From contig SHUD01000027.1 in assembly GCA_009697505.1 (NCBI GenBank), positions 1-32,125 of the forward strand: a stretch of 32,125 nt of DNA. Direction: 5' to 3'. A program made the translations under genes and the position numbers. The notes under the pieces are model-generated. The model saw nothing but the letters and a program-made list of their open reading frames with translations, made no database searches and was not told the origin of the DNA. The stretch is from Bryobacterales bacterium (GTDB taxonomy: Bacteria > Acidobacteriota > Terriglobia > Bryobacterales > Bryobacteraceae). Shown in pieces: positions 27,859 to 32,125 of this stretch; the stretch's first letter is position 1; each line of letters opens with the position of its first letter.

Positions 27859-30807
27859 ATGAGTAAAATTCGGATCAACGAGCTTGCTCGAGAACTCGAA
27901 GTCAAACCCAACGTCCTTCTGGACCTGTTGCTGGAACTGGGGGTTGCTAACAAAAAGACGCACTCCAGTTCGCTCGATGACGACGTCGCGCTGAAGCTCC
28001 GCCAACGTATCGCCGCTGGGGAGGAAGGCGAACCTGCCGCTCCGCGAATAGACCGGCCCCCGGCTGACCCCAGTGTAATATCACCGGCGGCCCCGGTGAC
28101 TGCGGCGGAACCCGCTATCCCGCAAAAAAGCGGCGCCGCGCCCGTGGCTGACACCGTGGCCAAGCAGCCGGCGCCCGCCGAACCCCCCGCGGCGCCGATA
28201 CGTCCAACGTTCCCTCTGCGGCCACCCCTGGCGACCGGGCAGCCGCTTACGCCGCCTTTAGAGCACGCGACAGCACACACAGGGCCGGTCCCGCCGCCAG
28301 CGGCGCTGCCGTCGCTCCCGAGTATTCCGGTGAGTCGCGGGCCCATGATCCAGACGCGGACAGCGCCTCCGGCGCCCAAGCCGGGGCAGATTTTGTCCGG
28401 CCCCAGGCAGCCGCTGCCGCCGGAGGTGGTGGAGGCACTGAAGCCCGCGCCCGCGGCGAGCGTTTCCCCTTTCGTTGCGGCGCCAACGCTAGTTCCTGGC
28501 GTGCCGCGTCCGGGTGCCGTACCGGCCATGCCGGCGCCTCCGCGTCCGGCGCTGCGTCCCGGTCCCGCGGCCCCTGCGCAGGCTGGAGCGCCAGTTGGCG
28601 GTGGCAATCCGCTGCGTCCTCCGGCAAGGCCGAATCTAGCCGGACAGCCCGTGGCGCGCCCGGTAGTCCCTCCGCGCGCGGATATGGTTGCGCGGTTGGC
28701 GGCCAAGCCTCCGGCCATGCCAGGCGCTCCGGCGCCGGGTGCGCCTCGTCCGGGCGTGCCTACGGCTCGCCCGGGTAGTCCGGTTCCGGGACGCCCAATT
28801 TACACCGGCCCGGTCCGTCCGGGTCAGCCTTTGATGCGCAGACCGGGAGGTCCTGGTGGTCCGCTGCGCGGACGCCCCATGCATCCGACGTCGCCCTTGC
28901 GCGCGGAACCGGCCACCTTGCCGGCAGATCCAGGGCGCCGTCATGCGACCAAACCTGGCGCGCGCGGAGCCGGCCGCCGCCGCGAGGATGAAGAGGGTCG
29001 TATACGGCCCGTGGCCAGGCGCCAGGAAGCGTTCCAGCCGCCGCCGATCGATCGCGAGATCACGATTGCCGAAGGCATCACGGTCAAGGAACTTTCCGAA
29101 AAACTTGGCATCAAGGGCAACCTGCTGGTTAAGCGTTTGGTGGAAAAGAAAATTTTCGCCACCATCAATCAAACCCTGGACGTCAAGTTGGCCGAAGAAC
29201 TGGCGCGTGATTTTGGCGCGTCGACCAACAAGCTGAGCTACGAAGAAGAATCGACGCACGACATTCAGCAGACCGAAGTCGATGAGGATCGCGAAAAGCG
29301 CCCGCCGGTGGTTACCATCATGGGTCACGTCGATCACGGCAAGACTTCCCTGCTTGACGCCATCCGTGTCACCAACGTGGCGGGCGGGGAAGCCGGCGGC
29401 ATCACGCAGCACATTGGCGCCTACCATGTCGAGAAGAATGGCAAGAACATCGTCTTCATCGATACCCCCGGTCACGAAGCGTTCACACGCATGCGCGCCC
29501 GCGGCGCCAAAGTTACCGATATCGTGGTGCTGGTAGTCGCCGCCGACGACGGCGTCATGCCGCAGACGCTGGAAGCCATCGATCACGCCAAGGCCGCCGG
29601 CGTACCCATCCTTGTCGCAATCAACAAGATCGACAAGCAGGACGCCCAGCCCGAACGCATTAAGCAGCAATTGGCGGATCGCGGATTGCTGGCCGAAGAC
29701 TGGGGCGGCGACACGGTCATGGTTCCAGTGTCGGCCAAGGCCAAGCAGAATCTGGACCTGTTATTGGAAATGATTCTGTTGGTGGCGGAGATGCAAACCC
29801 TGAAGGCCAACCGCGCGCGTCCCGCCATGGGTACTGTGCTCGAGGCCAAACTGGACCGCGGCCGCGGCCCGGTGGCTACCGTGCTGGTGCGCAACGGAAC
29901 TTTGAAGGTGGGGGATTATTTTATTGTCGGATCGGTGTTCGGCAAGGTCCGCGCCATGTTTGACGATAACGGCGCCCCGACGCGCGAAGTTGGTCCTTCA
30001 ATGCCCGCTGAGGTGCTCGGCCTGGAATCGCTGCCCGAAGTGGGCGATACGTTGCAGGTGGTCACCGACACGGCCAAGGCCAAGCAGATCGTGATTTACC
30101 GCGAGGCCAAGGCTCGTGAAGCGGCGATGTCGAAGACCAATCGCATCACGCTCGATCAGCTCCATGATCAGTTGAAGGAAGGCGAAACCAAGGAGCTGAA
30201 CATCATCCTCAAGACCGACGTAGGCGGAACCGCCGAGGTCCTGACCGATACCCTGCAGAAGCTTTCCAACGACCGGGTGAAGATTCGTGTACTGCACTCC
30301 GGTGTCGGCGCGATTACCGAAACGGACGTGCTGCTGGCGTCTGCCTCCAACGCCATCATCGTCGGCTTTAACGTCCGGCCGGAGCGCACCGCGCAAGCGG
30401 TCGCCGACCAGGAAAAAGTGGACATCCGCCTGCACTCGATCATTTACGAGCTGTCGGATCAGATCAAGAAGGCCATGACCGGAATGCTGGAGCCGGTCTT
30501 CAAGGAAGTCTATAAAGGCCGGGCTATCGTCCGCGAAGTGTTCCGCATCTCCAAGGTGGGTTCCGTTGCCGGTTGCCAGGTGGACGATGGCACCATCGTA
30601 CGCAATGCCGAGGTGCGCCTGGTGCGCGACAACGTGGTGATTTTCACCGGCAAGATTGATGCGCTGAAGCGCTTCAAAAACGATGCCAGTGAAGTGAAGC
30701 AGGGCTTCGAGTGCGGTATCTCCCTGCAGAACTTCAACGACCTAAAGCCCGGCGACGTGATCGAATGCTTCGCTTCCGAACGGGTGGCGACCGAAGCCTT
30801 CGTGTAA
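27859..30807 (+). CDS. infB: Translation initiation factor IF-2
   Basis: A 982-residue IF-2. A first IF2_N module ([26 protein letters not shown] in outline, residues 1-50) is followed by a long linker rich in Pro, Ala, Gly and Arg (about residues 55-370), then a second IF2_N module ([25 protein letters not shown]). The G domain begins with GHVDHGKT at 489-496, then [15 protein letters not shown] and NKID; domains II-IV follow. It positions fMet-tRNA on the 30S subunit in a GTP-dependent way. ATG 27859 is chosen because the first module starts there; a GGGG lies 8 bases upstream. An overlapping ATG at 27855 opens a three-codon frame that stops at 27864-27866. ylxP follows after 9 bases. Confidence 0.97.
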
Positions 30808-30816
30808 GCTACTTCC

Positions 30817-31104
30817 GTGCCGTGTGTAGGCGTCATTACGTTGGAGCTGAGTATCGGCGACGCGCAATCCCTCAAAGACAAGCGGCACTACGTCCAGGGA
30901 CTGAAAGACCGGCTACGCGCCAAGTTTAACGTCGCCGTGGCCGAAATCGATCATCAGGATTCCTGGCAGCGCGGCGTGGTCGCGGCCGTGACCGTTTCCG
31001 GCGACCGGGCTTTCGCCGAAAAAGTCCTGCAGAGCGTGGAAAACGAGGCCGCGCACTTCCTGGGCGGAGTCCTGGTGGGCAGCGCGGTGGAGTGGCTGGA
31101 GTAG
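30817..31104 (+). CDS. ylxP: YlxP-like DUF503 protein
   Basis: A 95-residue alpha/beta protein of the DUF503/YlxP family, usually found between infB and rbfA. The start VGVITLELSIGDAQSLKDKRHYV (outline) and the FNVAVAEIDHQDSWQRGVVAAVTVSGD segment are typical. Its function is not established; the neighbourhood suggests ribosome assembly or translation. GTG 30817 is the start. In this window it is followed by hicB, not rbfA, and a second, divergent copy of its last 26 codons plus stop is found at 31619-31699 beyond hicBA, so its 3' end may have been exchanged. Confidence 0.9.
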   Translation: MPCVGVITLELSIGDAQSLKDKRHYVQGLKDRLRAKFNVAVAEIDHQDSWQRGVVAAVTVSGDRAFAEKVLQSVENEAAHFLGGVLVGSAVEWLE

Positions 31105-31115
31105 AATGAAGCAGT

Positions 31116-31376
31116 ATGGCAAGAGCAAAGAGGCAATCCTCCTACCAAATTGACCTGGTACCCGCTATGGAGGGCGGCTACACCGTGATTGTGCCCGCGC
31201 TTCCCGGTTGCATCAGTTACGGGGAGACGGTCCAGGAGGCCACCCGCAACGCGCGTGAGGCGATCGAGCTTCATTTGGAAAACCTGGCTGCCCACCGGGA
31301 GCCGATACCGAAGGGCCATGGCGTCGCACCCGTCCTGAGCACTCTCGTTCAGGTGGGCGTGGGGGATGGCCGGTAG
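31116..31376 (+). CDS. hicB: HicB-family antitoxin
   Basis: An 86-residue HicB with the partial RNase H-like fold: YQIDLVPAMEGGYTVIVPALPGC, then ISYGETVQEATRNAREAIELHLENL (in outline). This is the pattern that binds and blocks HicA. There is no clear C-terminal DNA-binding domain, only a short Val/Gly tail. It begins 11 bases after ylxP, so it may ride on the infB operon's transcription. Its stop overlaps the hicA start by 11 bases. hicA is interrupted, so HicB may persist as an orphan. Confidence 0.9.
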   Translation: MARAKRQSSYQIDLVPAMEGGYTVIVPALPGCISYGETVQEATRNAREAIELHLENLAAHREPIPKGHGVAPVLSTLVQVGVGDGR

Positions 31377-31605
31377 CAAACTACCCACACTCCGTTAGAA
31401 AGAAGTCGTCCGAGCCCTGGAACATGCCGGATTCCAAACGTGGCGTCAGAAGGGGAGTCACCTAACGATGTTTCGCCGTATAGACCGGCGGGCGTTGACA
31501 ATTCCCATTCATTTTGCCAAAGACGTGCCGAAGGGGACGCTGCGGACGATCATTCGTGACGCGGGCCTGACAGTTGAGGACTGTGTCAACCTTCTGCGGC
31601 GTTGA
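31366..31605 (+). pseudogene. hicA: HicA-family mRNA interferase toxin interrupted by an in-frame TAG
   Basis: From ATG 31366 the frame reads MAGSKLPTLR, TAG (31396-31398), KEVVRALEHAGFQTWRQKGS, then HLTMFRRIDRRALTIPIHFAKDVPKGTLRTII and a typical end (LTVEDCVNLLRR) to the stop at 31605. Ignoring the TAG, it is a complete 79-codon HicA: the catalytic His is in GSHLTMF (position 32) in the double-stranded RNA-binding-like fold. HicA cleaves mRNA independently of ribosomes. TAG replaces a codon that could be CAG by one C-to-T change. There is no good start codon between the TAG and the catalytic region, so toxin production is probably abolished. Overlap with hicB is 11 bases. Confidence 0.85.
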
Positions 31606-31618
31606 GGTCTGCTTACAC

Positions 31619-31699
31619 GTTTTACAGACCGTGGCGCGCGAGGCGGGGGTGCTGCTAGGCCCACTGCTGATGGGCGTGACGACCGAGTGGCTGGCGTGA
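31619..31699 (+). pseudogene. Displaced 3' end of a second ylxP (DUF503) gene
   Basis: These 27 codons (VLQTVAREAGVLLGPLLMGV and TTEWLA then TGA) align without gaps to the last 26 codons plus stop of ylxP at 31024-31104, with 13 of 26 residues identical (VLQ, V, EA, LG, L, G, EWL), and both end at the same position relative to EWL. The nucleotides agree at about 50 of 81 positions by hand count, so it is a diverged relative, not a recent duplicate. There is no ribosome-binding site or start before it. It begins 13 bases after the hicA stop. Confidence 0.6.
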
Positions 31700-31758
31700 C
31701 ACATTGTGGCCATCGACCGCCACGGATTACTTCAGGAAAGGGTAGTTCGCGTTTCCCG

Positions 31759-32125
31759 CTAACGCGTACCGATGAAACCGTGGCCGCCTGAAGACCCTGC
31801 CACCGCACCCGAGTTGTTGATACACCATACGAAGGTGTTCGCAAGGCTCGGAGCGTCAAACGTGGCTATGCTGCCATCCTTAGTCCGCAGAAAGCCGTGC
31901 CCGACGCTGGATACGTCAATATACGACCCAGCGATGTCACCCCTGTTGTTAATGCCGAATGCGGTGGGGATATCAAACCACTGCTGTCCGGCTATCGCAT
32001 TTTGACCCTTGGGTAAGTCGTGTTTGCTCAGTGGGATGAATGGTATTTTGACTTTTTTCGATTTCAACTTCCGCTGACGGTTTTGGGGCGTTTTCGCCGG
32101 TGGAGGGACGATGCTGGAGCATGCG
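31759..32125 (-). CDS. HAF-repeat protein (partial)
   Basis: The frame is open to the right edge and ends at 31759. Visible segments follow the HAF-repeat pattern: FDIPTAFGINNRGDIAGSYID, then GHGFLRTKDGSIATFDAPS and CINNSGAVAGSSGGHGF (outlines), in which each unit reads G-F-x-x-x-x-G-x-x-x-x-F-D-A-P and I-N-x-x-G-x-x-x-G-x-S. Such proteins are usually secreted and of unknown function. Only about one and a half repeats are visible and the protein ends soon after GGHGFIGTR, so it is either the natural C-terminus or truncated. A start at TTG 32067 is possible, but the frame continues to 32125 without a stop, so I treat it as entering from the right. The 59 bases between the ylxP fragment and this gene hold nothing I recognise. 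Confidence 0.6.
   Translation of the reverse strand, partial: ACSSIVPPPAKTPQNRQRKLKSKKVKIPFIPLSKHDLPKGQNAIAGQQWFDIPTAFGINNRGDIAGSYIDVSSVGHGFLRTKDGSIATFDAPSLANTFVWCINNSGAVAGSSGGHGFIGTR

Follow-up and report, generated by a model that had tools for sequence, protein, structure and literature searches.

At the right end of a contig from a soil acidobacterium, ylxP is followed by a hicBA toxin-antitoxin pair and then by a second ylxP 3' end. We consider it likely, from sequence comparison, that hicBA came with a foreign ylxP end, and that an exchange on one side and an illegitimate join on the other displaced the original end to a place behind hicA. The window is the entire contig (32,125 nt) of the genome carrying the stranded end, here called G000, whose assembly is 65% complete. 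G002 denotes its closest relative among the genomes compared and G021 a sister genome. Features of the locus are collected in Table 1.

Table 1. Features at the right end of the contig
Feature	Coordinates	Strand	Remarks
infB	27859..30807	+	Pfam IF-2 and GTP_EFTU; upstream neighbour of ylxP; nearest is G002; in reference tree
ylxP (DUF503)	30817..31104	+	GTG start; PF04456, E 1.9e-28; apparent mosaic
Apparently foreign ylxP 3' end	31000..31104	+	Site-wise likelihood scan; start uncertain, best estimates codon 54 to 75 (30976 to 31039)
hicB antitoxin gene	31116..31376	+	HicB_lk_antitox PF15919, E 2.2e-13, above cut-off; likewise behind ylxP in G001 and G002
hicA toxin gene	31366..31605	+	Overlaps hicB end; in-frame TAG at 31396-31398
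Stranded, probably original ylxP 3' end	31616..31699	+	27 codons plus stop; sequence matches and placement on native branch
Remnant of reverse-strand gene behind stranded end	31759..31978	-	ORF; Pfam scan without support for HAF
End of IS4-type element	31979..32125		Contig stops within element

Two ylxP 3' ends flanking hicBA

The original prediction had noted that 31619-31699 matches the YlxP C-terminus (31024-31104) without gaps at 13 of 26 residues and that both end alike, an observation we confirm. Homology begins at about 31616, one codon ahead of the start first proposed and 10 bases past the hicA stop. That the 26-residue match might lie within chance, a risk named at the time, is not borne out: its BLOSUM62 score against the own C-terminus is 60, with a runner-up of 17, in a set of 641 open segments of 26 codons plus stop from both strands of the contig, own end included. 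A blastn search with 31605-32125 matched ylxP 3' ends in 14 of 29 relatives' loci (E cut-off 0.1), at best with 78% identity over 81 bp (E 6e-13). A profile built from 80 ylxP ends also finds the segment, with 28 bits and E 5e-6, among 56,565 reading-frame pieces from 323 loci. Every one of the 199 profile matches in long frames at E < 1e-3 carries the rest of YlxP, the weaker listed matches down to E 0.57 are ylxP genes too (by eye), and the best match that is not ylxP has E 3.7. When 112 ylxP ends were compared, a set that includes some duplicates, the best eleven matches of the segment were ten members of the genus and L091, a locus of an unassigned genus. The segment 31616-31699 is a true ylxP 3' end. 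The profile search found no further stranded ylxP ends among the 323 loci.

Between the two ends, the insert (31105-31615) contains hicBA and, by open reading frames and Pfam scan, no recombinase. Its hicB starts 11 bases behind the ylxP stop. The pair resembles other HicBA systems (PF15919/PF07927) in its hicB and hicA domains and its overlapping genes. It differs in that hicA is interrupted and in that the pair stands behind ylxP in three genomes only, among the matches listed. The hicA frame from the ATG at 31366 soon meets its TAG, the next in-frame ATG, GTG or TTG is at 31468, and the HicA domain (31399-31602; PF07927 profile positions 2-58 of 58, E 3.9e-18) lies behind the TAG.

Several hicBA relatives elsewhere (L324-L326, L330, L331) have a CATAAT-like box a few bases ahead of the hicB start. 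At 31090-31116 the ylxP stop (GTAGAAT) sits at the place of this box, as if a ylxP tail had been fused to the hicBA promoter. In L327 and L328, from another family, hicBA relatives are found behind an apparent end of ispG (by eye), which is also a housekeeping gene.

Behind the stranded end, the original prediction had placed an opposite-strand HAF gene. The HAF label has no Pfam support, and the sequence from about 31979 is the end of an IS4-type element, which cuts the reverse-strand gene at 31978. This end recurs with 99-100% identity at 11 more positions, spread over 10 other contigs of the assembly. A copy in G002 bears a DDE transposase gene and DUF4372; from its DUF4372 and DDE_Tnp_1 domains we take the element to be of IS4 type. 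At least three of the copies lie within 3 bases of a contig start, and the element probably breaks the assembly.

Placement of the two ends

A reference tree was inferred from nusA and infB, with ylxP left out, for 35 and subsequently 48 genomes. G021 is the sister of G000 and G002 in this tree, with support of 0.997 (48 genomes) and 0.988 (35 genomes). In a FastTree tree of nusA only, the sister of G000 and G002 is poorly settled, with G022 in that position at a support of 0.000; the data contain no ylxP for G022, which the reference trees leave out. The best-fitting branch was sought by likelihood for each 27-codon ylxP end.

With 48 genomes, the stranded end is placed on the G021 branch with a weight of 0.81-0.83 (three parameter sets), and all of its weight lies inside the genus. 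RELL values are 0.99 for inside the genus and 0.63 for exactly the G021 branch. For the present ends of G000 and G002 (codons 69-95), the weight inside the genus is 0.00 and 0.00 in the 48-genome tree and 0.00 and 0.02, respectively, in the 35-genome tree. Their RELL values inside the genus are 0.02-0.03 and their log-likelihoods inside minus outside the genus are -10.1 (G000) and -7.5 (G002), with KH z values of -1.70 and -1.20 that are not significant alone. Codons 60-95 give RELL values inside the genus of 0.022 (G000) and 0.075 (G002), and codons 1-60 place inside it at 0.998-0.999. Separate analysis of the 5' and 3' parts of ylxP, which had been proposed as a check, puts codons 1-60 inside and codons 69-95 outside the genus in both genomes. 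Since G000 and G002 are one lineage, they count as a single event. These placements support with moderate strength that the stranded end is native and the present ylxP end foreign; the signal for a foreign end comes from 27 codons.

Leave-one-out placement with the same 27 codons served as a control. Each of the 19 other genus members favours a position inside the genus, with log-likelihood differences (inside minus outside) of +0.7 to +34 and RELL values of 0.48 to 1.00. Among 44 windows of 27 codons across nusA, infB and ylxP, codons 69-95 of ylxP are alone in having an inside-genus weight below 0.05, and they do so in both genomes (0.00 each), although the control windows, ylxP ones excepted, belong to the reference alignment itself, which favours them. 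Three infB windows come near this cut-off, with inside-genus weights in G000 and G002 of 0.05 and 0.93 (codons 532-558), 0.06 and 0.06 (codons 559-585), and 0.05 and 0.28 (codons 910-936). Several control windows have a native log-likelihood difference below -10, and for ylxP codons 1-68 genus branches other than that of G021 are preferred. Because many control windows and ylxP codons 1-68 miss the exact reference position, it is placement outside the genus alone that is distinctive. Several short windows of nusA and infB (nusA 136-162, infB 667-693 and others) prefer branches of the genus that differ from their position in the whole-gene tree, which points to within-genus recombination or to noise.

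The best outside branch for the present end shifts with taxon set and genome, between G024, G026/G087/G088, and G159/L118. By amino acids, its nearest matches after G002 among the 112 ends are three genomes of the genus g35 (21, 21 and 20 of 27 residues), whose 5' ylxP parts match at just 63-64% of bases. We left g35 off the tree, as infB is absent from eight of the nine fetched regions and nusA is cut short in the ninth. Given the absence of infB from the ylxP region fetched for eight of nine genomes of this genus (G114-G125; L285-L287, L289-L294), ylxP seems to have left the operon there. Contrasts in raw DNA identity are small: the best matches of the present end outside the genus, G023 and G119, reach 0.741, and the genus member G011 reaches 0.704. 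A simple identity contrast between genus and non-genus sequences points weakly in the same direction as the placements and was not relied on.

Thus ylxP looks like a mosaic, in which the 5' part is from the genus and the last 21-42 codons apparently arrived with hicBA. Of 18 contrasts in the 48-genome scan, 16 put the change of origin at codons 54-62 and two put it at codon 75; both of the latter are against G024, where the breakpoint interval is wide. With 35 genomes the change falls at codon 75 against G024 and at codons 53-56 against G026/L118. Since the stranded end starts at codon 69, the insert is nearly conservative, and if the breakpoint is at codon 54 or later, about 15 or fewer native codons would be missing. 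The ylxP reading frame is open in G000 and G002. Between these two genomes, codons 61-95 show 10 base differences in 105 and 3 residue differences in 35, and codons 1-60 show 23 in 180 and 4 in 60, respectively, so the end has not been fast-changing since they split.

Distribution of hicBA and proposed history

Within the family (237 genomes, 216 of them with a ylxP match), the matches listed show hicB of this kind beside ylxP in G000, G002 and G001 alone (search at E 1e-9; hicB places compared with ylxP places by eye). A class-wide hicB search of 399 genomes at E 1e-17 gave nine further genomes, with no ylxP tail in their nine loci or in L196; L331 has fewer than 40 bases upstream of hicB, so it provides no test for such a tail. 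A donor with ylxP and hicBA outside the genus was found neither among the matches listed for the family nor in the class-wide search.

G002 matches G000 at 91% over the first 193 bases past ylxP, after which its hicB breaks off at about codon 61 and gives way to another gene. As hicB stands at the same spot in both, it probably arrived before G000 and G002 parted. The cut inside hicB makes the G002 locus uninformative on the earlier presence of a stranded end. G001 belongs to another clade of the genus, together with G014 and G007. Its HicB is 78% identical, and hicB starts 9 bases behind the ylxP stop. The ylxP end of G001 is placed with the clade to which this genome belongs. G001, G014 and G007 have a common gene behind ylxP (protein 87-89% identical), which we presume to be a PQQ dehydrogenase, and G014 and G007, having no hicBA behind ylxP, serve as the hicBA-less form for G001. 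Within the genus, the last YlxP codon is Glu solely where hicB is present (three genomes) and Ala, Thr or Ser in the other 18 genomes with ylxP.

The ylxP-linked toxin gene is disrupted or absent in each of the three genomes, and the cause differs among them: the stop codon in G000, a frame change in G001 (L006 2042-2320), and in G002 (L002 1800-2000) the lack of any hicA after the cut hicB. Judging from these reading frames, the toxin-antitoxin function is probably gone, while ylxP stays open.

The original prediction also regarded the absence of rbfA behind ylxP as a sign of disturbed gene order. All 22 other genus genomes have rbfA, and in none of the 20 that also have ylxP does it adjoin this gene; the two are on different contigs in 19 genomes and about 114 kb apart on the same contig in one. 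The absence of rbfA here is therefore uninformative. An empty site, with the displaced end and the same downstream gene and no hicBA, had been sought as confirmation and was not found in the 22 other genus genomes. Except for 26 bases in G004, on a contig other than its ylxP contig, 31700-31978 has no DNA match in these genomes at E 0.01. Nearest to an empty site is G021, which has a similar ylxP end and no hicBA, but a different gene behind. Across most of the 20 other genus members the gene behind ylxP differs (by eye), and a common gene is found in a few sets (G021 and G017; G012 and G016; G001, G007 and G014). The region behind ylxP is possibly a hot spot of gene turnover in the genus.

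The proposal that a hicBA cassette brought its own ylxP 3' end and displaced the original is largely supported by the placements and their controls. Before the split of G000 and G002, a ylxP end with hicBA from a bacterium outside the sampled genus would have recombined into the resident ylxP. On the left, homologous exchange inside ylxP, at about codons 54-75, would have kept the reading frame and given the gene the foreign codons in which it now ends. On the right, illegitimate recombination would have linked the incoming DNA, a short way past hicA, to about codon 69 of the resident ylxP, thereby stranding the original 27-codon end at 31616-31699. Later the toxin gene would have decayed, and the foreign ylxP end would have stayed because it was now the working end. 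The lack of a recombinase in the insert, together with a left breakpoint in homologous sequence, fits such a one-ended homologous exchange with an illegitimate right join. On the right side no homology between the hicA end and ylxP is seen in G000, and this junction is known from one assembly. We infer that the ylxP end and hicBA arrived together, that the join had this direction and mechanism, and that the mosaic protein functions.

A tandem duplication, with two ylxP copies, hicBA between them and the second copy deleted except for its 3' end, is in our view unlikely. Such events do occur in the group, as L091 (JANXXR010000098.1) has a tandemly duplicated segment with the infB 3' end, ylxP and a secreted-protein gene. 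However, a recent copy should resemble its own end most, and the stranded end is identical to the own ylxP end at 50 of 81 bases (31 differ) versus 61 of 81 for G021. The foreign placement of the present end would require a separate event. No more ylxP matches were found in the genome at E 0.001, in a search that also missed the stranded end and that short remains could escape. The region of L091 concerned (1-2600) carries the label Deltaproteobacteria, but with 76-78% protein identity in YlxP it is close to this genus.

Integrase-mediated insertion of a mobile element that carried a ylxP end and later shrank to hicBA appears somewhat less probable still. It would produce the same geometry as e14 in icd, in which the insert supplies the gene end (PMC11148124, PMC6379469) and the old end lies on the other side. 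Against it, neither an integrase nor larger cargo is found in 31105-31615, and the two junctions have in common just a 10-base stretch with one mismatch (by eye; decay may hide more). In G001, hicBA stands behind an essentially native ylxP end, so the breakpoint differs.

We see a slim chance that the present ylxP is wholly native and that a G021-like genome supplied the stranded end and its downstream DNA, which were joined behind hicA. The similarity of the stranded end to G021 and the variable DNA behind ylxP in most genus genomes (by eye) would agree with this. It leaves unexplained, however, why codons 69-95 place outside the genus in two genomes whose codons 1-60 place inside it, and the slow divergence of this end between G000 and G002 (10 of 105 versus 23 of 180 bases) speaks against rapid change as the cause. 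An assembly chimera is hardly credible, even at the end of a metagenome contig that closes in a repeat and comes from an assembly 65% complete, as the two ylxP ends are too unlike (50 of 81 bases) to mislead an assembler and the far side enters the IS copy repeated near-identically on other contigs of the same assembly.

Displacement of the original ylxP end by a foreign end arriving with hicBA thus remains our preferred reading. As a tentative extension, hicBA in this group could be a passive cassette that uses a ylxP tail as homology arm, each transfer swapping the gene end and stranding the old one with no recombinase involved. G001, with related hicBA, an almost native ylxP and Glu as last codon, fits a second transfer with a later crossover.

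Parallels and implications

The arrangement has the hallmarks of gene-end displacement. Two ylxP 3' ends flank the insert, and the outer one appears ancestral and the inner one foreign, within the limits of 27 codons and of KH tests that are not significant alone. In the reports on prophage e14 in icd of Escherichia coli K-12 (icdC; PMC11148124, PMC6379469), the insert gives the gene a new 3' end with the frame kept, and the original icd end of 165 bp lies on the far side of the insert. The ylxP locus would share this geometry, with a housekeeping gene that gets its 3' end from an insert and the original end beyond it. They differ in that e14 is a prophage with an integrase gene and the ylxP insert is hicBA of about 0.5 kb with no recombinase, and in that the icd ends differ by 12 bases and the ylxP ends at 31 of 81.

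C-terminal displacement in rhs genes is described as a laterally acquired alternative end that supplants the old one, which persists as a dissociated tip (PMC2935791). The ylxP case would be similar in that an acquired end replaces an existing one and the old end is left behind. There, the tips of rhs genes are exchanged and form long arrays, whereas here the gene is the small housekeeping gene ylxP and the cargo a separate toxin-antitoxin pair. For Vibrio type VI secretion effectors, one study proposes displacement by homology-facilitated illegitimate recombination, with one end homologous and the other illegitimate, and the old 3' end is shifted back, as we propose for ylxP (PMC5361080). There, the exchanged gene is the effector itself with its immunity gene, whereas ylxP would be a mere anchor for the toxin-antitoxin pair. 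We found no paper naming both ylxP and hicBA in the openly accessible literature.

Displacement of gene ends has precedents in integrase-bearing prophages and in polymorphic toxins; new here is its apparent occurrence in a small conserved gene of a translation operon. A practical search rule is to look past each toxin-antitoxin pair for an orphan second 3' end of the gene that precedes it. If our reading is true, the tail of a housekeeping gene can be the handle by which a 0.5-kb toxin-antitoxin pair with no recombinase spreads, and foreign tails can occur in core genes on which phylogenies are built.
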